Source of the DNA: a virus | Reading direction: 5' to 3' (one strand) | DNA: 21,813 nt | IMG/VR virus record: IMGVR_UViG_3300044608_001966 | Span: 1 to 21,813 of that record | Shown: positions 2,284 through 21,813 of the stretch, one piece after another | Position numbering within the stretch: position 1 is the stretch's first letter | How the letters are laid out: each line of letters opens with the position of its first letter | Position numbers and translations under genes: made by a program | The notes under the pieces: generated by a model | The model's database searches: none | Told to the model about the DNA's origin: nothing | The model's input: the letters and a program-made list of their open reading frames with translations, nothing else

Positions 2284-4230
2284 GTGACAATCGGTTTCCT
2301 GCGGTCGGATCCCGGGTCTGGGTATCGCCTGGACGGTGCGCTGATCAACGTGCTGACGGGCCTGGGCACAGCCAAGGACCGAAATGAGGCCATTGGCATC
2401 AAGCGCAGCCAGATCCTTTCCGAGGCGCAGGTCAACGCGCTGTATGAGCAGTCCTGGCTGATTCGTCGCATCGTCGACAAATTGCCGCAGCAAGGCACCC
2501 GCAGCGGCTGGGACCTCAGCGTGGGCGACGACACTTCGAGCCGAATGAAAAAACAGCTGGACGATCTTGTCGGCTGGACTGAAGAGCTGAAATTGCGTAA
2601 GGCGCTGAACGCGGCCGCGGCCTACAGCCGCCTTTACGGCGGCGGGGCCATCGTCATCGTCGCGGATGACCGAACCCCAATCGATCAGCCCCTCAATCTC
2701 AAGCGGTTGAGGACGTTGCACGGCTTATACGCGATCGATCGCCACCGGCTTTACCCCTCCGCCGGCTGGTCAGGCATTGGCGAACCGGAGCGATACTGGT
2801 TTTGGACCCAGCACGATCGGGACCTGCAGACGCTGGACAAGCGGGCCGCCGCCAGTCAGGTCACGAGCGCCTGGGTGGCCATCACCGACGCCACCCAGGT
2901 GGACATCCATGCCAGCCGGGTGATTCGCCTCGAGGGTTTGCCCTGCTCCTGGCGCTCTCAACAGGAGCGGCAATCGTGGGGCGTTTCCGTGGTGGAATTG
3001 TGCTGGGACGTCTTCAAGCGCTACGAGACCGGCCAGCAATCGGCTGCCGACATTCTCCATGACTTCGATCTGGTGGTGCATAAGCTGCCTGGCTTGGCCA
3101 ACATGCTCGCCGCCGGCGGCGAAGACAAGCTGCGTCAGCGGTTGCAGGCCAATGCCATGGCCCGCAGCACCATTGGCGCCTACCTCCTCAACGACAACGA
3201 GGAGCTGACCAACTTCACCCGTTCGGCGGCTGGGATCGCCGACATCCTCGCCAGCCTCAAGAGCGAGATCACCGGCGCAAGTGGCCTCCCCCACACCCTG
3301 CTGTGGGGCGAAAGCCCCTCTGGGCTGGGTGCTGATGGCCGCAGTGAGCAGGCGGCATTCGGCAACGACGTGGCCGACTGGCAGGCCCAACACCTCATGG
3401 AGCCGCTGAAGCAGATCTACAAGATCGCCATGGCTTGCTCTGATGGCCCCTGGAAGGGGAAGGCGCCGCCGCCAGATTGGGAGATCTCCTTCCGCCCCAC
3501 CTACACCCCCACGGAGGATGAGCAAGCCGATCTGCGGCAGAAGGTGACCGCGTCCGACAGCCAATACATCCAGGCTGGAGTTCTGCAGCCCAACGAGGTG
3601 GCCCTGGCACGGTTCGGGAAGCCGCGGTTCAGCCTGGACACCACCCTGCTGAACCGCGAGGCCGACGGATCGATCCCTCAGCCGGAGCAGCAGCCCGTGG
3701 AGTTCGGCGGCAGCCTCGCAACTGATCCGGCTGCGGCCATTGATCAGCCGCCTGCAGATCTTGCTGTGCCCGATGTGGCGCCATTGGAGCCCCCAGAGCG
3801 TCGCGACGCGGAAGACGACGAGCCCTGCTGTGACGCCTGTGAAGCTCGTGCAGAGGCGCTGGCACAGCAGATCACCAACCACCGCGGCCGCCGCCGCCGC
3901 CGGCGTGATGAGGAGCCTCGGAACGATGCCGCTGGCCAGATCCATCAGATCCTCGGAGTGAGCGTGCGGATGGATGGTCCTGGCATCGGCCGCCTGCAGG
4001 GCCCCTATGGACAGAACCTCCCTTATCCCGTGGCGGTGGGGCCGGACCTGAGTGGGGCCTGGGAGGTATTCGAGCCCTCCACCGGCGCCTATCTGCTGGC
4101 CCTGGGGCACCAGCACCAGCGGGGCCTGCGGGATGCCGTCGGACCCCAGGTCAGCATTCGCCGAATCGACGCGGTTGATCTGGTGGCCATGGGCGCGATC
4201 TGCGATGCCTACCTTGCCGGGGACACTTGA
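2284..4230 (+). CDS. Phage portal protein, DUF1073-type, with C-terminal extension
   Basis: The protein has 648 residues. Portals form the dodecameric ring at the packaging vertex. The first ~450 residues fit the DUF1073 portal family: EAQVNALYEQSWLIRRIVD, a glycine-rich YSRLYGGGAIVIVADD, ASRVIRLEG, SWGVSVVELCWDVFKRYE and TLLWGESPSGLGADGRSEQ. The family usually ends near residue 450-480. Here about 150 more residues follow: an acidic stretch with CCDAC, an arginine run (GRRRRRRDEE, encoded by a GCC-type repeat at about 3885-3905) and a distinct C-terminal piece of unknown role. The GTG start at 2284 is chosen because an in-frame TGA lies at 2263 and conserved sequence begins soon after. No strong Shine-Dalgarno is visible. 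It is the first gene of the head operon. Confidence 0.88.
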   Translation: MTIGFLRSDPGSGYRLDGALINVLTGLGTAKDRNEAIGIKRSQILSEAQVNALYEQSWLIRRIVDKLPQQGTRSGWDLSVGDDTSSRMKKQLDDLVGWTEELKLRKALNAAAAYSRLYGGGAIVIVADDRTPIDQPLNLKRLRTLHGLYAIDRHRLYPSAGWSGIGEPERYWFWTQHDRDLQTLDKRAAASQVTSAWVAITDATQVDIHASRVIRLEGLPCSWRSQQERQSWGVSVVELCWDVFKRYETGQQSAADILHDFDLVVHKLPGLANMLAAGGEDKLRQRLQANAMARSTIGAYLLNDNEELTNFTRSAAGIADILASLKSEITGASGLPHTLLWGESPSGLGADGRSEQAAFGNDVADWQAQHLMEPLKQIYKIAMACSDGPWKGKAPPPDWEISFRPTYTPTEDEQADLRQKVTASDSQYIQAGVLQPNEVALARFGKPRFSLDTTLLNREADGSIPQPEQQPVEFGGSLATDPAAAIDQPPADLAVPDVAPLEPPERRDAEDDEPCCDACEARAEALAQQITNHRGRRRRRRDEEPRNDAAGQIHQILGVSVRMDGPGIGRLQGPYGQNLPYPVAVGPDLSGAWEVFEPSTGAYLLALGHQHQRGLRDAVGPQVSIRRIDAVDLVAMGAICDAYLAGDT

Positions 4231-5690
4231 TGACCATCCTGCATACCCACGACTTCAGACCTGGGGACATGATTCAGAGTCTGACGCCTCCTGGCAACCA
4301 AGCACCTCAAGCTGAAAATGATGGCAGCCATAAGACAGTCCTACCCTGGCTGTCAAAAGGCGAGCCGATGCATTTATCTCAGTCCTTGCCGGAACGGATT
4401 GACGCATTGCAGCGCAAGTGCACCACCGGCTACGGCTGCGGCGCGGCATGCATCAGCCTGCGAAAAGAGTGCCGCACCAGCCCCCGGGACACGATCGGCA
4501 AGGTTCGGCTGAACCGGCTGCTGGAGCTGGCTGCCGTGGGTGGATCGAACCAGAAGGGCATCAACCAGGTGAAGCCGAAAGAGGCCGCTGAGCTGGCTGA
4601 GGGCATTTCAGCCCAGCGAGGCGAGCGTGCAGCACAGCTGCGCAACGCACGCCAGCAAACAAAGGCGCCGCCATCAAACCAGGAGGCCGCGGCGGAGCAG
4701 AAGCCTGCCGTAGCCCCCAAGCCTTCCGCAGAGCAAGCGCCCCAGAAGGGCGGTGCCTTGGCGCTGCGCCAGCAACCACAAGAGCAGCGGCGGTCGGGCC
4801 CAGCTACGCCGGATGAAAAATATGCGGGCAAAGCAGATGATGCAAGCGTTACAGCCTATGCAAAGGAAAAGGCAAAACAACTCTTGAACGATCCACAAGC
4901 ATGGGAAAACTCTGTATTTGTACAAAACCAGACCAAGGATGATCGCTTTGGTCATGCTGTAGTAAATGGCGACGACGCCACGGCTCGCCGAGCATTTAAC
5001 TCATATTTCAATGGTATGCTTAAAACTCGAGAGGCCGAGCTGAAGCGGGGTCACTCATTCTCGACTGACAGGCCGGACGAAATCGAAAAGAAACTCGAGA
5101 AAGCAAAAGTGTCTAAGAGTAAAAACAAAGAGAAGACAGTGGCGAGCCTCACAAAGAAGCTTGCCGAAGCCAAGCAGCAGTTAGAGGATGCCAGGGTTTT
5201 TGTTGAAGAAACGTACCCACGTATGAAGGCAATGTCGGACGACGAGAAAATTGCCTACGCCAGAAACCGCGCTAAAAAGAACGTGGATAGGGTTATTCAG
5301 TACGGCATACGTGATCTTAAGTCGGAAAGCCGTGGCGGCAATGAGGTTGCTGCAGTTGCAGACTTTCTACGTGTTGAGCAAGGCGGCAAGCGCAAGGGAG
5401 TCGCCGAGCTGCTAGGGGAGGATTCAGCAGATGATATGGATGTGATTCGTGCTCAGCTCACCGGCAAGGGCACATCAGAAGGAGCGTTGGGGCTCAAGCC
5501 CGGCGTTCAGCCCACACGAAATGAGCTGAAGTCCGCCTACCGGAAAGCCGCTGCCAAGAGCCACCCCGATGCTGGCGGCTCGCCTGAAGAGTTCAGAATG
5601 ACCCAGCAGGCCTATGAGCGACTGAAGAAAAAGTACAAATATGATTCGCTCATGGCACGGCTTGATGCGCTGCGCGCCCGTTGCTGCTGA
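4230..5690 (+). CDS. Four-cysteine module protein with C-terminal J domain (putative polyvalent/ejected protein)
   Basis: The protein has 486 residues from the ATG at 4230, which overlaps the portal stop as TGATG. An alternative ATG at 4368, with AAAAGG 7 nt upstream, gives 440 residues and places the module near the N-terminus. From 4230, residues about 56-110 hold the CX5CX3CX6C module (Cys 64, 70, 74, 81) and its basic helix. A Gln/Pro/Ala-rich linker (about 135-200) and a charged, coiled-coil-prone middle (EIEKKLEKAKVSKSK) follow. Residues about 421-473 resemble a J domain: ELKSAYRKAAAKSHPDAGGS with the invariant HPD (H445), then EEFRMTQQAYERLKKKY. J domains stimulate Hsp70 ATPase, so a link to host DnaK is plausible. 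The middle (about 4810-5450) is more AT-rich than its surroundings. The protein ends DSLMARLDALRARCC, like the start of another module. Confidence 0.8.
   Translation: MTILHTHDFRPGDMIQSLTPPGNQAPQAENDGSHKTVLPWLSKGEPMHLSQSLPERIDALQRKCTTGYGCGAACISLRKECRTSPRDTIGKVRLNRLLELAAVGGSNQKGINQVKPKEAAELAEGISAQRGERAAQLRNARQQTKAPPSNQEAAAEQKPAVAPKPSAEQAPQKGGALALRQQPQEQRRSGPATPDEKYAGKADDASVTAYAKEKAKQLLNDPQAWENSVFVQNQTKDDRFGHAVVNGDDATARRAFNSYFNGMLKTREAELKRGHSFSTDRPDEIEKKLEKAKVSKSKNKEKTVASLTKKLAEAKQQLEDARVFVEETYPRMKAMSDDEKIAYARNRAKKNVDRVIQYGIRDLKSESRGGNEVAAVADFLRVEQGGKRKGVAELLGEDSADDMDVIRAQLTGKGTSEGALGLKPGVQPTRNELKSAYRKAAAKSHPDAGGSPEEFRMTQQAYERLKKKYKYDSLMARLDALRARCC
4389..4530 (+). repeat. Cys-module copy 1 (in the J-domain protein)
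   Basis: Encodes ERIDALQRKC..., then CX5CX3CX6C with cysteine codons at 4419, 4437, 4449 and 4470, then a TSPRDTIGKVRLNRLLELAA helix. Bases 4411-4484 are identical to 6695-6768 in the next gene. Confidence 0.93.
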
Positions 5691-5691
5691 G

Positions 5692-8265
5692 ATGAATCGG
5701 CGGGCTTCGGCTGATAGGGCGGTGTTGTTGCAGCACCGGATCGATGCCGTGCGCCGTCAGGTTCAGTCCCCTGATCAGCTAGCGCTGGATCTGAGTGGGG
5801 GGGGAGCCACAGACGGAAACCAGGCGGGCAACGGCGAACCCTGTGGGCAGGGCTGGATCAGCCGGGACAAGACCTGCCACAAGGGCCAAGGAGCAGCCAG
5901 CCCCGCCAACCGGCCCAACGAGGCCAAACGCAGCAAGCCAAAGGAGACCATCCTCTTCCCGGAGCCCATCGTGGGGCCCAGCGGCGCCAAGCTCACCGCC
6001 TACACCTGGCAGTGGACGCTTACCGAGGACGTGGATCACCGCGGGGAACCGGTTGAGAAGCGGGTGTCGGATTGGGAGAAAAGCATCGCCAGCGTCGAAA
6101 CCGGCAGGAATGTCGTCCATCAATTTCAGGTGGACGTGAACGGCGAAACCCGCACTGTTAGCGCTGAATCCGCCCTGAAGCTGATGGGCTTCCTCAGCGA
6201 AGGCGACCGCAAGGCCTTCGGCAGCCTCAAGAGCTCCGCCAGGACAGTGGCCCGTCTGCGCATGGCCCAGCAAGAGCTGGACCAGCTGGAAAAACGTTGG
6301 CAGAAAGACTGGGACGATGTGGAGGCGCTGCCTCGCCCCCCAGTGGAGGTTGGCGAGTGGTCAGAGGAACCGCCCGGTTGGCCACGGGAGGGCTATCGAC
6401 GCCGCACCTGGCGAGCCGGAGACGTTGAGGTAGAACAGATCTGGAATCAACTTGGTGTTGATAGCGACCAGGACGAGGCTGCGCACTTATTTGCCCAATG
6501 GAAGGCCAGCGAGATGAAGAAACGCGGCTGGGACTACACAGGCCAAAGACAGAGATCAATGAGGCGCCACATTGATTACAACCGAGGCGACTTGATCAAG
6601 CGGCTTGCCAGGGCGGAGGCCAAGCTGATGAACCAGGCCCAGTTCGATCGCAATAGCAAGGTCGACGGACTCAATGCACGCATTGACGCCCTCAAGCGCA
6701 AGTGCACCACCGGCTACGGCTGCGGCGCGGCATGCATCAGCCTGCGAAAAGAGTGCCGCACCAGCCCCAGCTCGACGATTGGCAAGCAACGCCTCAGGCG
6801 ACTTTTGGCCATTGCCGCTGGAGAGAAGGCGAAGCAGCGGGGCATTGCGCCAGTGAAAGCCACCGAAGCCAGCGCGATGGCCGCGGCCATCACCGACCAG
6901 CGCAGGGAAACGGCCCAGCAACTGAAAGGGCAGAGAAAGCAATCTGGGCTGATCCCCACCGCCCTGCCGTTCACCGATGCCATGGCCGCCCGGATCCGGA
7001 AGGGCATCGAGGAGCGCACCGCCACCACCGGCACCGTCAACTACGACGGCAAAGATCTGGCCGCGGCAATGCTCAAAGTGGCGCAGACTCCGGAAGGTGA
7101 AAACATGCGCAAGGCCCTTGCCTTCATGGAAGAGGCGGGAATCCTGGTGAACATCAATGCGAAGTTCACCGATGAGGTTGAGCGCATCACCGGCAAACCG
7201 GCCAGCGAGCTGCCGTGGACTCGGCCGCTGGAGCTCGCCAAGTTCGTTCGAGAGGCTGGCCTGGTCTCAGATGAGCGACTGGAGTGGCTGAAAAGAGACC
7301 AGACACAGGCAGGTCGGGCAATGTTGAGAAAAGCCGAAATCATCCGCAACCCGCCGAAACCAAGTCCAGAGGAAAAGGTCTACAAGAAAAATTACGAAGG
7401 CATGAAGGCTATTTACAAGGAAAAAGAGGAAGAGTTTGAGCGCAGCGTGCGTGATGGTTGGAGATCGCCAGAGGAGAAGAAAGATGTGCTGTGGATGGTG
7501 AAAAGAGATCTGGACAACCAGCGCAAGCGCTATCTTGCCCATCGGGACGGCAGACTGAATGAGATCAAGTGGGCGGCGCAGGACTTTATCAATGGTGATA
7601 CAGTAGGGCTTTCGGCACGTGACAACGGTGGAAGCTATGCGTCAGGGCAAAAGAAATACAACGCCGTCAGCGGGGATGATAAATCATGGGCTGGCGTGTA
7701 TCGAGTCAACGCAGGAGAAACAGAGTTTGCAAACATGCAAAGTCTTTATAGCAAGCACCTGGCTGCATACCTGCCGGAAAAGCTGAAAGGCATTGAAGAC
7801 AACTCCCGAAACTTTGACCTGCTGAACGGTCCTATTGGCTTCGGCAAGGGGTTTACACACGCCGAACAGGCGCTCAACATCCACATTCACGAGCTTGGCC
7901 ACGCTGTCGACAATTTTGCCGATGTCATTGTCCGCAAGGTTTCTGACATGGAAAGCAGAACAGCAGATGGAGCCTGGTCCGGCGCGACAAAGCAAGTGCT
8001 GTCTCACGGTGTTTCCTGGCATAATCACAAAAGCAATAGGCCAGAGGCTGTGTTGAGGTCACTTTCCCAGCGACGTGGCCCATCGGAGTATTCTTTAACC
8101 AATGACAATGAATTGTTTGCCGAATCATTTGCTTCCTGGGTGGTCGCACCGAAGGCGTTGAAGCAACATCACCCCGATCTCTATGCCTGGGTGGAGGACC
8201 GCTTCACAAAGGCTCGGCATACCATGGTCAAACATGGCCACCTGCGATTCGAGGAGGAGCGCTGA
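5692..8265 (+). CDS. Four-cysteine module protein with C-terminal HExxH zinc metallopeptidase domain
   Basis: The protein has 857 residues. The start is the ATG at 5692, one base after the previous stop; the frame extends upstream to 5641 but inside the preceding gene. Residues 51-62 (CGQGWISRDKTC) match the second half of the cysteine module, with Trp in place of one Cys. Residues about 325-400 carry a full module (Cys 338, 344, 348, 355). The last ~200 residues hold the zincin: IHIHELGHAVDN (H733, E734, H737), then NDNELFAESFASWV (E807, E811) and HPDLYAWVEDRF near the end. The HExxH plus downstream ExFA helix is typical of anthrax-lethal-factor-type gluzincins in polyvalent phage proteins. 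Role inferred: proteolysis during morphogenesis or after ejection into the host. The region about 7320-8150 is clearly more AT-rich than the N-terminal half. Confidence 0.82.
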   Translation: MNRRASADRAVLLQHRIDAVRRQVQSPDQLALDLSGGGATDGNQAGNGEPCGQGWISRDKTCHKGQGAASPANRPNEAKRSKPKETILFPEPIVGPSGAKLTAYTWQWTLTEDVDHRGEPVEKRVSDWEKSIASVETGRNVVHQFQVDVNGETRTVSAESALKLMGFLSEGDRKAFGSLKSSARTVARLRMAQQELDQLEKRWQKDWDDVEALPRPPVEVGEWSEEPPGWPREGYRRRTWRAGDVEVEQIWNQLGVDSDQDEAAHLFAQWKASEMKKRGWDYTGQRQRSMRRHIDYNRGDLIKRLARAEAKLMNQAQFDRNSKVDGLNARIDALKRKCTTGYGCGAACISLRKECRTSPSSTIGKQRLRRLLAIAAGEKAKQRGIAPVKATEASAMAAAITDQRRETAQQLKGQRKQSGLIPTALPFTDAMAARIRKGIEERTATTGTVNYDGKDLAAAMLKVAQTPEGENMRKALAFMEEAGILVNINAKFTDEVERITGKPASELPWTRPLELAKFVREAGLVSDERLEWLKRDQTQAGRAMLRKAEIIRNPPKPSPEEKVYKKNYEGMKAIYKEKEEEFERSVRDGWRSPEEKKDVLWMVKRDLDNQRKRYLAHRDGRLNEIKWAAQDFINGDTVGLSARDNGGSYASGQKKYNAVSGDDKSWAGVYRVNAGETEFANMQSLYSKHLAAYLPEKLKGIEDNSRNFDLLNGPIGFGKGFTHAEQALNIHIHELGHAVDNFADVIVRKVSDMESRTADGAWSGATKQVLSHGVSWHNHKSNRPEAVLRSLSQRRGPSEYSLTNDNELFAESFASWVVAPKALKQHHPDLYAWVEDRFTKARHTMVKHGHLRFEEER
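5842..5877 (+). repeat. Degenerate half-module, CGxxWISxxKxC
   Basis: Twelve residues align without gaps to the CGAACISLRKEC half of the full module: the first Cys, Gly, Ile, Ser, Lys and last Cys match, and the middle Cys is Trp. It lies near the N-terminus of the metallopeptidase protein. Confidence 0.6.
6676..6820 (+). repeat. Cys-module copy 2 (in the metallopeptidase protein)
   Basis: Encodes ARIDALKRKC..., CX5CX3CX6C with cysteine codons at 6703, 6721, 6733 and 6754, then SPSSTIGKQRLRRLLAIAAG. Bases 6695-6768 equal copy 1 (4411-4484), while 6762-6800 equal copy 4 (20713-20751), so the copy is a mosaic. Confidence 0.94.
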
Positions 8266-8513: not shown

Positions 8514-9899
8514 ATGGCTGACCGGTCCCTAGAGCTGCTCGAGGAGCTCGACCAGCAGCTGCAGGGCCTGGAGAGTGCCCAGCTGCGCAAGCTGCGCGGG
8601 ATCTTCGATGAGGCACTGCGCCGCACCATCCGGAGCATCACCGATCGGCTGGAGCGGATCGCCGAGCAGCCCGAGTACGACCCGGCCACCACCCCCGGCG
8701 CATTTCTCGGCAGCACTCCCGACGGCCCGGTGCCCATCACCCCCCTGCAGAAGAACCAGGCCAGCCTCTACCTGCAGGGCCAGCTCGCCCAGGATCTGCA
8801 GGCGATCATCAACCGCTTCCCGGCCGACCGGGCCGCCAACGCAGGCCTCAACCGTGAGCTCACGGAGCTCTACAACCGCGCCCAGGACCTCGCCACCGAG
8901 TACGCCCTCGAGCTCTCTCGCGACATGCTCCCCCCGGCCGCCGTGCTCTCCGGCAGCCACCCTGCTCTGCAGGATCCCCAGCTGCCGCCCGCCGCCCCCC
9001 CGGCCCCCACCGATGCGCCCGCCCCGGGCAGCCCCTACCAGGAAGGGCAGAGCTTCACCCGGCTGCTCAACATGGGCGCCACCATCGCCGCGGCCGAACG
9101 CGACTTCAAAACCCTCAGCGCCAATTACCGGCGCCAGCGCAACGCCGCCACCGATGAGCGGGTGAGGGCATCGAAGGATTACTTCTTCCGCTGGTGGCGC
9201 GACTGGGGCGACACGGTGCAGTTCGAGACCGCCACCCAGCTGGCCACCGGCGTGGACAGCCGCAAGCTGGCGCGCACCCTGAGGGCACGCCTCCCACACA
9301 TCAACGACGCCTTCCGAGGCCGCGCCGAAACCATCGCTCGCACCGAAACTCACATCGCCGCTGGCGAGGCCCGCGAGCGCACGTTCCGCCGCGTCGGCGC
9401 CGGCTTCGTGCGGTACGTGGCCACGGCCGACGATCGGGTCTGTGAGTTCTGCGCCCCCCGGATGGGGTGCCTCTACTACGCCGGCAGCGTGAAGACCCCC
9501 ATCCACCCCCGCTGCCGGTGCGCCCTGTCCCCGATCACCCTGGAAGCCCTGGTGATCCAGAACGAGCTGGCCAGCGGCCGCGGCGAGCGTTGGGAGGCGC
9601 AGCAGCAGGCCCTGGCTGCGGCGACACGTCAGAAGTACGACCAGGCCAGCAGCAGGCCATGGCGGCCGATCGGCGGCACCGGTGAGCCCCGCGGCCCGGG
9701 GGACTTCCCTCTGATGGAGCGCACCGCTCTGCCGGCCACCACCCCCCGGCCGAACCAGGCCAACAACCCGGCGAACGGCGGCGCCAGGCCCTGGCCATCG
9801 GGGGATCCGGTGTGGTCCCCCTCCAGGGGCTGGATCAATGCCGCCGCCCGCGAGGCCTACGAGGCAATGGTCCGCGAGGTGGCGGAGCTGGAGGCGTGA
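8514..9899 (+). CDS. Phage head morphogenesis protein, MuF (Mu gpF-like) family
   Basis: The protein has 461 residues. Residues about 190-340 are the MuF domain: KDYFFRWW..., then GRAETIARTETHIAAGEARER, the core DDRVCEFCAPRMGCLYYAG (C310, C313, C319) and the closing IHPRCRC (H331, C334, C336). This Cys/His arrangement is the family hallmark and probably binds a metal. MuF proteins are minor head proteins near the portal in Mu- and SPP1-type phages, needed for head assembly or DNA ejection. The N-terminus (1-60) is a charged helix, and about 145-180 is Pro/Ala-rich. A ~120-residue Pro/Gly-rich tail follows the domain, with no fused toxin visible. It is the last gene of the head operon and is convergent with the gene at 9901-10281, the stops being one base apart. 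Confidence 0.92.
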   Translation: MADRSLELLEELDQQLQGLESAQLRKLRGIFDEALRRTIRSITDRLERIAEQPEYDPATTPGAFLGSTPDGPVPITPLQKNQASLYLQGQLAQDLQAIINRFPADRAANAGLNRELTELYNRAQDLATEYALELSRDMLPPAAVLSGSHPALQDPQLPPAAPPAPTDAPAPGSPYQEGQSFTRLLNMGATIAAAERDFKTLSANYRRQRNAATDERVRASKDYFFRWWRDWGDTVQFETATQLATGVDSRKLARTLRARLPHINDAFRGRAETIARTETHIAAGEARERTFRRVGAGFVRYVATADDRVCEFCAPRMGCLYYAGSVKTPIHPRCRCALSPITLEALVIQNELASGRGERWEAQQQALAAATRQKYDQASSRPWRPIGGTGEPRGPGDFPLMERTALPATTPRPNQANNPANGGARPWPSGDPVWSPSRGWINAAAREAYEAMVREVAELEA

Positions 9900-10634: not shown

Positions 10635-11636
10635 ATGGCTTCGATCAATGTCCTGCGCAACCGCCTCTATCTGCTGGCCAAGGTGCCGAGGCGAGACGGC
10701 GGCCCAGGCCTTGAGCAAACGCGGATAGCACTCAGGCTCGACGACACGCCGGTCAATCGCAGGGCAGCAGCCAAACAGCTGCAAACCCTGGAGCGGCAAT
10801 TGGAGCGCGGAGAGTTCAGCTGGGCCTACTGGAGTGATGCGCCAGAAGGAGTGACGTGGCGTGAAGCGATCGCGCGCCTGTATCGGGCCAAGGTTGTTTT
10901 GGGGCACACGGGGGAGAGCACCTGGCAGATCAACTATTTGGGCCGGTTGCGACAGATCCCCCCGAGCAGCCTCTGCACAACTGAGAGCCTGGCGGCCGCA
11001 TTGCAGCGCTACGACAGGGCCAGCTGCAGCTACAAGGAGCTGTACTACCTGTTGCGGCACATTGCCAGGCTGATCTCGGTGCCGTTCCCGGAGGTGCCGT
11101 TGCCCAGCTATCGGGAGGCTCAGCTGGTTGCGGTGCCGACGGATCAGCAGATCATCGACTGGGTGGAAAGCGCGCCAGCCAGCAGTCGCTGGTACTGGGG
11201 CATGATGGCGACTTTTGGGCTGAGACCTCACGAAATTGAGGGCTCCACACTGATTGATCGCGATTACTGCCAGGTCAGCGAAAACACCAAAACTGGATTC
11301 CGAACTGTGGTACCCCTGCCGCGGGAATGGGTTGACCGGTTTGGGCTGCAGGATCGGCGGTTAAGGCCACGGCTGGAGGGCAGCACCGACCGACCGGATA
11401 ATGCATCGAAATGGCTAAGCAAGGAATTGCGAAAAATGAATATTCCTTGGCGACCCTATGCCTTGCGGCATGCCTATGCAGCCAGGCTGTGGAGAGAAGG
11501 CGGTTCGCGGCTGGACATCTTCACCGCTGCTCGGCTGATGGGCCATAGCCCGCAGCAGCACAGCAAAACCTATCGATCCCACATCCAACCCCATCACATC
11601 GCCGAGACAGCCGAGCGTGCGTTACGAGGGGGATAG
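10635..11636 (+). CDS. int: Tyrosine recombinase / phage integrase
   Basis: The protein has 333 residues. The catalytic set is visible in the C-terminal half: R197 in FGLRPHEIEG, a lysine candidate K219 in ENTKTGFRTVV, box II YALRHAYAARLW (R278), H304 in LMGHSPQQHS and the nucleophile Y313 in KTYRSHI. The usual first histidine of box II is Tyr (Y275). Residues about 70-150 form the core-binding, SAM-like domain (WREAIARLYRAK...). The first ~65 residues are a basic region that may be the arm-binding part. Length is normal for the family. The start ATG at 10635 is well placed, though no strong Shine-Dalgarno precedes it. Its 3' end overlaps the convergent HTH gene by 15 bp, an arrangement that could couple integrase and excisionase expression. 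It would integrate and excise the phage genome. Confidence 0.9.
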   Translation: MASINVLRNRLYLLAKVPRRDGGPGLEQTRIALRLDDTPVNRRAAAKQLQTLERQLERGEFSWAYWSDAPEGVTWREAIARLYRAKVVLGHTGESTWQINYLGRLRQIPPSSLCTTESLAAALQRYDRASCSYKELYYLLRHIARLISVPFPEVPLPSYREAQLVAVPTDQQIIDWVESAPASSRWYWGMMATFGLRPHEIEGSTLIDRDYCQVSENTKTGFRTVVPLPREWVDRFGLQDRRLRPRLEGSTDRPDNASKWLSKELRKMNIPWRPYALRHAYAARLWREGGSRLDIFTAARLMGHSPQQHSKTYRSHIQPHHIAETAERALRGG

Positions 11637-18566: not shown

Positions 18567-18836
18567 ATGGATCGCCGAACCGAGATGGTGCAGTTGGCAA
18601 CTCAGCTTCTTAGCGAGCAAATCAGGCCGGTGCAGATCGTTTCGATCTCTGACGCCAACGGTGAACCCCAGGGGGAGTTCATCTCCAATCAGCAGCGGTT
18701 CACGTTCAAATTCACAAAGAGTGGCATGATCACCTACCGACCTAAGGCGCAGGGCGGCAGCGAGGAAGGTCGCTCAGATAGTGCGCGAGAGCGTCTTGAA
18801 CGCATAAAGGCTCGCTTGCGGAGTCTCTATCGATGA
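18567..18836 (+). CDS. Small unknown protein before the giant module gene
   Basis: The protein has 89 residues. The N-terminal half looks beta-rich (VQIVSISDANGEPQGEFISNQQRFTFKFTKSGMITYRPK). The C-terminal third is a charged helix with regular leucines (SARERLERIKARLRSLYR). The start is ATG at 18567 after a 36-nt gap with no clear ribosome-binding site. Its stop overlaps the next ATG (ATGA), linking its expression to the large gene downstream. No family is recognised. Confidence 0.66.
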   Translation: MDRRTEMVQLATQLLSEQIRPVQIVSISDANGEPQGEFISNQQRFTFKFTKSGMITYRPKAQGGSEEGRSDSARERLERIKARLRSLYR

Positions 18837-21813
18837 GCCGCGCTCAGAGGCTGCAGGAGCGACTCTCAGCCGTCGAATCTCGACTGGCGCTCAGCCTCCG
18901 CAGACCAATGCACACTGGCCTCGCGCATCTGGCGCCTTTGCGGCAACCGGGCCTGCGGCAGGACTCTGGCGACCCGGTTTCGTCCCTGCTCCGTTCCCTG
19001 CTGGCGGAAGTGCTGCCGGGCGCACAGGTGTTGGACTGGCGGCAGGAGGCCGGCGGCCACACGGGCCGAATGGTGGCCGATGGGCTGGTGTATCGCTGGC
19101 GGGTGGATGGTGATGGTGTGGCCTATCGGCCTGCCTGGGATGGAGTGCGTCAGCGTGGCTGGGAGCTGCGCAGCGATTCGTTCCTGGAGCTGCGCAGCGA
19201 TTCGTTCCTGGAGCTGCGTGCACCTGGTGCCCGGATGGACAGGCGGGGCAGCTCCCAGCCAACAAGCGGCACAAAGCGCAAGTGCAGCACCGGCTACGGA
19301 TGCGGCGCGGCATGCATCAGCCTGCAGAAGGAGTGCCGGATCAACCCTGGTAGCGCCATCGGGAAAAACCGTCTGCGGCGCCTCCAGCAGCTGGCCGCCA
19401 CGGGCGACAAGGGCGCCGAGACCACCGCCACAGCGCTCTCAGCCTCCAGGGGGGCCCCGGCTGCCGAGCGGCTGCGGGATCGCAACGCCAAGCGGGTAGA
19501 GCAGCTTCTGGCCCGGCCCGAAATTGCAGAGTTCTTGCGCACCGGCAAGCTGCCCCAGGGCGCCAGCGCTTCCACTGAGCCCGGCACCGTTCGGAACATG
19601 AGCCCCGGCGAGATCGTTTTCGACCCGGGACGCTTCCAGTACAAGCTCAACGCGACAGAGGGCACAGGAGAGGTGGGCAGCCTCTCTGGCGTTCGGAAAT
19701 GGGATCCGAACCTCGCCGGCGTGATGAGCGTCTGGAAAGACCCTGCCGATGGCAGGATCTACGTGGTGAACGGGCACAACCGGCTCAGCCTGGCGAAACG
19801 CCTTGGCGCCGAAGAGGTGACCGTGCGATTCCTCAAGGCAGCCAACGCCACGGAGGCCCGGGCGATCGGCGCCATGCAGAACATCGCCGAAGGTGCCGGC
19901 ACCCCCATGGATGCCGCCAAGTTCTTCCGCGACACCGGCATCAAGACCCAGAAGGATGTTGAGGCCCGGGGCCTGCCGCTGGGCAGCGGCCAGGCAGAAA
20001 AAGGCCTGCGGCTCAGCAAGCTGCCCAGCGACGTGTTCAACGCCGTGGTGCGTGGCGATCTGAGCGTGAACCGCGGCGCGATCCTCGGCGGCTCCGGCCT
20101 CGATGAGGTGAAGCAGCGCGAGGTGTTCAAGATGATCAGCTCCCGAAAGGCGATCGCTGATCAGACCCTGCTGGAGCTGGTGGAGCACGCCGCTGCGAGC
20201 GAGCAACGCACCCAGACCACGATCGACCTCTTCGGGATGAGCCAGGAGGCCAAAGACAACCTGTTCACCCGGGCCAAGCTCTCCGCCGGCCTGACGGCCA
20301 AAATCGCTCGCGAGAAGCGGTTGTTCAGCACCGTCTCGAAGGCCAAGGCGGCCACCAGCCTGCAGGAGAAGGGTGGCAACGTGATCAACCAGGAGCAAAG
20401 CTCCAAAGTGGCGAGTGAAGCCAGCGAAGCACTGGATGTGTTCAAGCGGCTCAAAAGCGCCAGCGGACCGATCAGCTCCGCTCTCAACCGCGCGGCCGAC
20501 CGGGTGGAGGCGGGGGAATCCGAGAGCACGGTGCGGCAGGAACTTGAGCGGGAGGTGTTTGCCGCTGTGGAGCAAGAGCTGACATCGGCCGGCCTGCGCA
20601 AGCGGCCACGGGCTGACAGCCTGCAGGAGCGGATCGACGCCCTTAAGCGGAAGTGCAGCACCGGCTATGGCTGCGGCAGCGCCTGCATTTCGCTGCGGAA
20701 GGAGTGCCGCAGCAGCCCCAGCTCGACGATTGGCAAGCAACGCCTCAGGCGTCTTTTGGCCATCGCCGCCGGGGAGGGCCCCAAGCAGCGAGGCATCGCT
20801 CCCGTGAAAGCCAAGGAAGCCGGGGAGCTGGCTGCTGGCATTGGGAAGCAGCGGGGGGCCAAAGCCGCACAGCTGCGAATGGTGCGCCAGATCAGCGCTG
20901 AAGCGCCAAACATGACGCCTCGCGAACAGCGGCTGGTCGACCTGGCGAAAAAGCAGCTGACTGCGGCCGATAAGGTGCCAACGCAGTCACCCAAGGCCGC
21001 GGCCAGCCCAGGCGATTTTGGGCTCACCAACCCAAGCCCTCAGACTCCAGGCCAGGCGCCAAAACCGAAGGAGCAAGGTCTCACGACCCAGGACGTGACC
21101 ACCAGCAGCCAACAAGCGGCCTTTGCGCGGCAACAGCAGCAGGCCGCCAGGGCCGCCGGGGATGAGCGCGGCGCACAAGCCTGGCGACAGGAGGAACGCA
21201 CGGTGGAACGCAACCGGCTGGCCAATGCCATCACCACCCGCAACCAAAGCCAGACCGCGCTGTTCGGCGCGACCGAATACGACCAATCCATGCCGCTGCT
21301 TCAGCAGCAGCCTGCCGGGGCCGTTCAACCGCGGCAGACCCCGAAGATCGCTGACGTGTTGAGGCAGACCACCGCCCAGCTCAAGGCGGCGGATGCTCGT
21401 CAAATGGGCATGATCGCCGAGCAGTTGTTCGAGACTTCGTGGACGATCGACCGTCGCACCCGCTTTCGGGGCATGAGCAAAGACCAAGCTCGCGACCAGT
21501 TCAAGGCGGATTTGCTTAAACAAATGCAAGAGCAGGCTGCGTCCCCTGAGGCAGCTGAGCGGGCCGCCGCCATGCGCGACCGCGCTGCAGCGTCTGGTTC
21601 GGTCTCCGGCGCCATGAAAGCTGTGCTCGAGGCCATGCAGGCCCAGGACAAGCGGCTGGAAGACCTGCAACGCAAAGCGATTGATTTGCGCCTTCAGGCG
21701 GAGGAGCAGTTCGGCGACCAAGGCGCGGATCCAACCCTGGGCGGTGGCCGGCCGCGGCGTCGCCTCGGCGGCAGCAAGCGCCGTGATGGCGTGGCTGACA
21801 GCCTGGAGGGCAG
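18833..21813 (+). CDS. Giant Cys-module protein with ParB-like domain (3' end outside window)
   Basis: The frame from ATG 18833 is open to the last base: at least 993 residues, stop not seen. The start overlaps the previous stop (ATGA). Residues 1-110 are unknown, then an ELRSDSFL octapeptide is duplicated (111-126). Module copy 3 follows (Cys 151, 157, 161, 168). Residues about 255-420 resemble ParB-superfamily domains of phage polyvalent proteins: FDPGRFQYKLN, IYVVNGHNRLSLAKRLG (GHNR at 314-317), then EARAIGAMQNIAEG and a helical part. Residues about 420-590 are helical and charged. Module copy 4 follows (Cys 608, 614, 618, 625), then a long Gln/Ala-rich helical segment (YDQSMPLLQQQ, LFETSWTIDRR, LKAVLEAMQAQD-like heptads). 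The visible end, RRDGVADSLEG, looks like the lead-in to another module. Role inferred: virion-borne, multi-domain protein delivered with the DNA. Confidence 0.82.
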   Translation, partial: MSRAQRLQERLSAVESRLALSLRRPMHTGLAHLAPLRQPGLRQDSGDPVSSLLRSLLAEVLPGAQVLDWRQEAGGHTGRMVADGLVYRWRVDGDGVAYRPAWDGVRQRGWELRSDSFLELRSDSFLELRAPGARMDRRGSSQPTSGTKRKCSTGYGCGAACISLQKECRINPGSAIGKNRLRRLQQLAATGDKGAETTATALSASRGAPAAERLRDRNAKRVEQLLARPEIAEFLRTGKLPQGASASTEPGTVRNMSPGEIVFDPGRFQYKLNATEGTGEVGSLSGVRKWDPNLAGVMSVWKDPADGRIYVVNGHNRLSLAKRLGAEEVTVRFLKAANATEARAIGAMQNIAEGAGTPMDAAKFFRDTGIKTQKDVEARGLPLGSGQAEKGLRLSKLPSDVFNAVVRGDLSVNRGAILGGSGLDEVKQREVFKMISSRKAIADQTLLELVEHAAASEQRTQTTIDLFGMSQEAKDNLFTRAKLSAGLTAKIAREKRLFSTVSKAKAATSLQEKGGNVINQEQSSKVASEASEALDVFKRLKSASGPISSALNRAADRVEAGESESTVRQELEREVFAAVEQELTSAGLRKRPRADSLQERIDALKRKCSTGYGCGSACISLRKECRSSPSSTIGKQRLRRLLAIAAGEGPKQRGIAPVKAKEAGELAAGIGKQRGAKAAQLRMVRQISAEAPNMTPREQRLVDLAKKQLTAADKVPTQSPKAAASPGDFGLTNPSPQTPGQAPKPKEQGLTTQDVTTSSQQAAFARQQQQAARAAGDERGAQAWRQEERTVERNRLANAITTRNQSQTALFGATEYDQSMPLLQQQPAGAVQPRQTPKIADVLRQTTAQLKAADARQMGMIAEQLFETSWTIDRRTRFRGMSKDQARDQFKADLLKQMQEQAASPEAAERAAAMRDRAAASGSVSGAMKAVLEAMQAQDKRLEDLQRKAIDLRLQAEEQFGDQGADPTLGGGRPRRRLGGSKRRDGVADSLEG
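19163..19210. repeat. Perfect 24-bp in-frame tandem duplication
   Basis: 19163-19186 is repeated exactly at 19187-19210, doubling ELRSDSFL; the first 8 bases of a third unit follow. It lies between the unknown N-terminal part and module copy 3. Confidence 0.95.
19274..19395 (+). repeat. Cys-module copy 3 (giant protein, first)
   Basis: Cysteine codons at 19283, 19301, 19313 and 19334 give CX5CX3CX6C; downstream INPGSAIGKNRLRRLQQLAA matches the helix of the other copies. The upstream RIDAL lead is missing here, replaced by SQPTSGTKRK. Confidence 0.93.
20621..20770 (+). repeat. Cys-module copy 4 (giant protein, second)
   Basis: Full form: ADSLQERIDALKRK, cysteine codons at 20654, 20672, 20684 and 20705, then SPSSTIGKQRLRRLLAIAAG. 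Bases 20713-20751 equal 6762-6800 of copy 2. Confidence 0.94.

Follow-up and report, generated by a model that had tools for sequence, protein, structure and literature searches.

The window analysed here, a virus record of 21,813 bases containing the C-terminal part of a terminase and portal, MuF and tail genes, ends in an open reading frame (ORF), 18833..21811, that encodes a ParB-like domain of the Noc/ParB type. A four-cysteine module (C-x5-7-C-x3-C-x5-6-C) flanks this domain on both sides. With a probability of about one half, we regard the product as a modular, probably virion-resident polyvalent protein, whose ParB/Noc core would serve as a long-lived DNA clamp and whose cysteine modules would serve as adaptors. 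The fold, the family, the fusions, the modules and the grouping of modules across genes in a module tree were computed here. The parts of the window are as follows, with the basis of each assignment in brackets.

18833..21811, + strand: modular ORF, at least 993 aa (993 codons read), open at the 3' end of the window (ORF list)
18974..19132, + strand: N-terminal domain of a helix and a four-strand meander (AF2 of alignment A5, pLDDT ~90)
19256..19417, + strand: cysteine module 1, CSTGYGCGAACISLQKEC plus helix (HMM match; repeat family D2)
19586..19894, + strand: ParB nucleotide-binding fold (AF2 model, structure matches, profile alignment to Noc)
19637-19639, + strand: Box I Gln, within the nucleotide-binding fold
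19772-19783, + strand: Box II GHNR, within the nucleotide-binding fold
19877-19882, + strand: Box III QN, within the nucleotide-binding fold
19895..20203, + strand: helix-turn-helix (HTH), DNA-binding domain of ParB/Noc type (structure match to model residue 262; HTH_ParB)
20204..20587, + strand: family-specific beta-hairpin and helical region 3' of the HTH (AF2 secondary structure; conserved in A4)
20621..20791, + strand: cysteine module 2 (HMM match; module tree)
4392..4556, + strand: cysteine module in the DnaJ-domain ORF 4227-5690 (repeat and HMM; DnaJ domain E 3.3e-6)
6664..6849, + strand: cysteine module in the M90/ATLF-type zinc-peptidase ORF 5641-8265 (Peptidase_M90 E 8.2e-7)
2284..4230, + strand: portal protein gene, part of the setting (Phage_portal_3 E 9e-63)
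8514..9899, + strand: MuF minor head protein gene, part of the setting (Phage_Mu_F E 5e-9)

The ParB-type domain and its fold

An earlier note on this DNA had read a ParB-like domain at 19590-20090 from two stretches, VVNGHNRLSLAKRLGA and EARAIGAMQNIAEG, both of which lie inside ORF 18833..21811, and had placed it in a module protein of at least 993 residues running off the window. The frame is indeed open through all 993 codons read. In close relatives, the gene either stops soon after or continues with a further module and another domain, for example ART; beyond the window one would thus expect either a stop after no more than a few dozen codons or one additional module with an enzyme domain. 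The ParB-like domain itself is confirmed, and its proposed membership of the ParB superfamily is borne out by both profile search and structure. Residues 244-557 match phrog_21 (E-value = 4.4e-54), only at positions 1009-1324 of the 1362 in the profile, and residues 309-345 weakly match phrog_620, named 'ParB-like partition protein' (E-value = 0.031), which the relative L122 matches with an E-value of 6.5e-4. Pfam recorded HTH_ParB below threshold in the window ORF (E-value = 0.048), and Pfam and NCBIfam gave this ORF no ParB-like name above threshold.

The AF2 model of 19418-20620, built from an alignment of 16 related sequences (A3), is of middling confidence (mean pLDDT 71.4, pTM 0.53). The top Foldseek ranks for this model are Noc, ParB and KorB (7nfu, a Noc structure, E-value = 2.5e-7; 21 matches with E <=0.001), and VIA-align placed it on Noc with a Z of 9.4 over 194 residues at 4.2 Å rmsd. 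Z is 9-10 across Noc, ParB and KorB, and several ParB matches have an rmsd of 11-12 Å, which we read as probable hinge differences between domains. The structure match spans model residues 57-262 (window 19586-20203) and includes both the nucleotide-binding fold and the HTH; the extent given earlier thus covers the nucleotide-binding part but cuts the HTH, since the match runs to 20203. A profile of 43 divergent family members (A4) reaches Noc by sequence alone (E-value = 0.0058), and in this alignment GHNR falls opposite GERR, while the EN of Noc is matched by QN/TN. The dN/dS of the region is 0.16–0.20 against four close relatives (L001, L002, L003 and L008), 0.24 against L101 and 0.47 against the distant L085, and the gene is therefore under constraint here.

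The N-terminal meander domain and the cysteine module have no clear fold match in the PDB (Foldseek best E 0.2; VIA-align best Z 5.0). An eight-residue unit, ELRSDSFL, stands in tandem at about 19166-19230 and occurs at most once in each of the other 17 sequences of A5. Directly upstream of the ParB ORF, an 89-aa ORF (18567-18836) resembles, on inspection by eye, a stand-alone form of its N-terminal meander domain. Between the terminase and the portal, sigma-70-like (1221-2183) and LexA-like (870-1199) ORFs were recognized by eye on the opposite strand. An integrase-like ORF (10635-11636), with an Arm-DNA-bind domain below the cut-offs, lies inside the late gene cluster, and in L008 there is a serine-recombinase-like ORF (by eye) nearby.

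Family membership and the nucleotide pocket

On sequence comparison, this ParB domain is a separate family, distinct from DdrB-ParB, with at least 288 relatives in IMG/VR: the scan with A3 confirmed 288 of 322 pattern matches, the best 80 of which were kept, so that distant members are under-sampled. The 'ddrB-like' assignment of the earlier note did not survive. PF18763 (ddrB-ParB) found the phage P1 DdrB with an E-value of 5.9e-42 and matched none of the 13 other records, and hhalign of A4 against P1 DdrB gave a probability of 0.4, that is, no relation; DdrB membership was rejected on these two results. PF02195 (ParB_N) matched none of 14 records, compared with 11 of 14 control genomes, but this miss is weak evidence because P1, which carries its own ParB, was likewise missed.

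The family shares the ParB/Srx superfamily and a phage polyvalent setting with the DdrB-like ParB proteins, as well as an Asn or Asp at the strand end before the Box II Gly (N in 41 and D in two of 43 members here; for DdrB, the available part of PMC5512222). It differs from them in lacking any profile or hhalign relation and in continuing from the domain into an HTH. With the ParB/Noc/KorB CTPases it has in common the nucleotide-binding fold plus HTH and the retained GxxR and Asn, whereas its Box II Glu is changed to His, its Box III Glu is replaced, and it sits in large virion-type proteins missed by PF02195. In the domain figure of a survey of the ParB-CTPase fold published in 2025, this fold carries the label PF02195, and the words 'portal' and 'polyvalent' are absent from the survey's available text (PMC12704722). 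The ParB of the cyanophage Mic1 is described, in the available part of PMC7156551, as belonging to a ParABS partition system. Among plasmids, there were no matches to the module-ParB stretch.

The C-terminal part of phrog_21, a profile named 'portal protein', is this ParB family. The profile joins a lambda-type portal to the ParB part, and ParB-only proteins are therefore likely to be mislabelled as portals. Unlike phrog_21 portals, the window ORF has no portal part: profile positions 35-523 are unmatched, and a portal label was rejected because only positions 1009-1324 match.

In the numbering of 19418-20620, Gln74 of Box I, Gly119, His120 and Arg122 of Box II and Asn155 of Box III are invariant in all 43 members, and Arg148 is invariant in the family. 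GHNR replaces the GERR of ParB, placing His at the catalytic Glu position in 43/43, and the Box III Glu position is occupied by T (19), Q (18), K (2), A, I or V, and by Ser in L017, with Glu seen in none of the 43. Both catalytic glutamates of ParB (Box II GERR, Box III ENxxR) are thus absent. According to the available portion of PMC8494293, these two glutamates are required for CTP hydrolysis in the ParB of B. subtilis, its E78Q and E111Q variants bind CTP and close the clamp without hydrolysis, and initial results with histidine or alanine in place of Glu were similar. Weak hydrolysis is predicted for the phage domain because of the His in Box II and the replaced Glu in Box III, and binding of CTP or another NTP is plausible given the invariance of GxxR and of the Asn in Box III. 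The domain is therefore expected to bind a nucleotide and to hydrolyse it weakly or not at all. Binding is not a given for this fold, however: according to the accessible text of PMC12704722, 17 of 28 purified ParB-fold proteins bound no NTP in vitro, and the identity of the nucleotide is unreadable from sequence.

A different reading, along the lines suggested for DdrB-like ParB domains, would make this domain a DNase or nickase under the control of an NTP; it might cleave the DNA of the host or of rivals, or introduce nicks into the incoming genome. Iyer et al. refer to nuclease activity in several ParB-like proteins and locate ParB-like domains in the late-gene clusters of phages (PMC5512222, available text), and the invariant His of GHNR together with the invariant Arg148 could serve catalysis. 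However, the family falls outside ddrB-ParB by both profile and hhalign, and the model continues into the ParB/Noc HTH, which points to DNA binding. We consider such a nuclease unlikely.

The four-cysteine module, its partners and its exchange

Four module copies exist in three proteins of the window; the earlier note on the ParB-like domain makes no mention of this repeated module. An iterated HMM recognized the module in 127 ORFs of 89 records, of which 79 ORFs are distinct and hold 107 modules. The four-Cys pattern occurs in 104 of the 107, and the Cys content is 7.6% inside the modules compared with 0.37% outside. The stretches between modules fall into 28 clusters. Pfam domains in these ORFs are DnaJ, M90/ATLF peptidase, APH/RIO-type kinase, ART, zeta toxin and LPD1, and the ParB domain is also found in them, joined with ART in L008, with kinase in L009 and with M90 in L065; several of the module ORFs scanned with Pfam had no named domain.

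The module is also found in isolated phages. It is present in six ORFs of PaV-LD, two of them annotated as virion proteins by the depositors, and in gp044, gp045, gp047 and gp048 of CL131, the last of which has esterase/lipase-like domains. In gp048 (L170 2706-8138), at least four modules are separated by these domains. The CL131 portal, gp012, has no ParB domain. For the CL131 virion, 23 proteins were identified by LC-MS/MS (available part of PMC6293099). S-CBWM1 has the module at the N-terminus of a RIO-type kinase, gp113 (L172 7974-8939), whose annotated start looks too late, since the upstream open frame holds an ATG and the cysteine module. The minor head protein of cyanophage PSS2 combines MuF and zeta-toxin domains and has no cysteine module. 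A sequence search of the PDB with the module gave only designed armadillo repeats (via the module helix), conotoxin and other chance matches. Narrow patterns from two module alignments, run over 84,980 genomes, produced 41 and 13 pattern matches, with none confirmed. In the literature titles and abstracts searched, mostly outside subscription journals, the module and the portal-ParB fusion are undescribed.

The polyvalent-protein setting proposed earlier was upheld by the ART, kinase and M90-type domains in module and ParB ORFs. Single proteins carry at least two disparate domains, and virion genes (portal and MuF) are neighbours in the window. As in the phage polyvalent proteins of Iyer et al. 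(2017), several unrelated enzyme-like domains exist in one late-gene protein, the ART, kinase, zincin, ParB and LPD1 domains recur, and there is an association with MuF; here, in contrast, a repeated four-cysteine module precedes the effector domains in several genes of a single phage. According to its available text, which nowhere uses the word 'cysteine', that study sees in polyvalent proteins no counterpart of the fixed layout that secreted toxins follow (PMC5512222). We judge the whole system to be a variant of the phage polyvalent proteins.

A nucleotide tree of 23 modules, with the short basis of 144 bases, crosses gene boundaries. Module 2 of the window ParB gene clusters with a module from the same window, the one in the M90 gene (83.3% identity, support 0.975), rather than with its positional counterparts in relatives (identity at most 72.2%), and the module before ART in L008 groups with the one before the kinase in L009 (support 1.000). 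This suggests exchange of modules between genes. Half modules, RLDALRARC for example, form the end of several ORFs. Because the tree crosses genes and ORFs end in half modules, we think it probable that cassettes have been gained and lost through recombination at the modules; the same picture would result from gene conversion.

Virion setting and proposed action

Clustering at 90% identity reduced 118 ORFs with a ParB core of at least 250 residues to 40 representatives. The ParB domain is fused to a portal in nine of them, to MuF in one and to a tape measure in one, as called by comparison with query pieces taken partly from members themselves (L122, L143 and L140). Pfam confirms the fusions in L143, L130, L168 and L140, and also in L122, which is closely related to the representative L123. 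A module stands directly upstream of the ParB domain in 23 of the 40, including all nine portal fusions, compared with 14 of 6,413 other ORFs, although the 40 are biased in that some were recruited through the module. By hand count, 15 of the 28 representatives from the ParB-only scan have an upstream module, as do none of the four from the phage collection. The module is not required for the ParB domain, since T7-like and giant versions are without it.

T7 ejection proteins sit after the tail tubular genes, and in the T7-like phages P-SCSP1g and uvMED S31-C1 the ParB domain lies in a long protein after these genes. In the Prochlorococcus phage P-SCSP1a, it is found within gene 21 (g21), whose product the authors, judging by its size and position, propose to be an internal virion protein (PMC9860041, available part). 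P-SCSP1u carries the ParB protein too, as the product of PSCSP1u_00023. DUF2213 and major capsid genes follow downstream in L008. The window's ParB-domain protein is probably virion-resident, because its relatives include portal, MuF and tape-measure fusions and the predicted internal virion protein g21. The fusions and the gene position further point to possible delivery into the host together with the DNA.

In the reading we prefer, the core, a ParB/Noc-type nucleotide-binding fold with HTH missed by Pfam ParB_N and ddrB-ParB, would load a nucleotide and close around DNA, either phage DNA in the vicinity of the portal or the genome as it enters. The clamp would then stay shut, because both catalytic glutamates are replaced (Box II Glu by His, Box III Glu by Gln or Thr), and could organise or protect the first DNA to enter. 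The four-cysteine modules would act as reusable adaptors that join effector-like domains to virion proteins and are exchanged among them. Speaking against this reading, neither a partner nor a parS-like site was identified, nor was a dimerisation domain at the C-terminus.

A structural role is conceivable too, in which the domain organises DNA in the portal crown or internal core and serves packaging or gating rather than delivery. It accords with the position of the domain on the C-terminal side of portal domains in nine of the 40 representatives, always with a cysteine module between. However, the window and its closest relatives have a separate gene with exchangeable enzyme-like domains, and the T7-like phages have the domain at the position of ejected proteins; we thus find this role doubtful. 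A further option, that the ParB part has degenerated from a DNA- or nucleotide-binding domain and survives as a spacer beside joined effector domains that alone matter, would fit the loss of the catalytic Glu positions but is very improbable, as the pocket Gln, GxxR and Asn are invariant in 43/43 and dN/dS is low against the four close relatives.

Returning to the clamp-and-adaptor reading, we tentatively extend it, at low confidence, to the possibility that the four-cysteine module serves generally as a tag by which exchangeable effectors are loaded into virions or anchored there, with the ParB unit as a natural non-hydrolysing clamp on phage DNA. If so, the tag's cargo would include ADP-ribosyltransferases, kinases, peptidases, zeta-type kinases, hydrolases and ParB clamps, and the module would be a virion counterpart of the trafficking modules in secreted toxin systems.

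For annotation, the results carry a warning that matches to phrog_21 can be wrongly called portals. They also suggest how part of the gene 21 product folds in P-SCSP1a, an MPP-C Prochlorococcus phage; the paper on this phage could give that gene no annotation (PMC9860041, available part). In short, the cysteine module marks, at the sequence level, proteins that are probably taken into the host by phages, and the ParB family represents a virion-associated branch of the ParB fold with natural substitutions at both catalytic glutamates.
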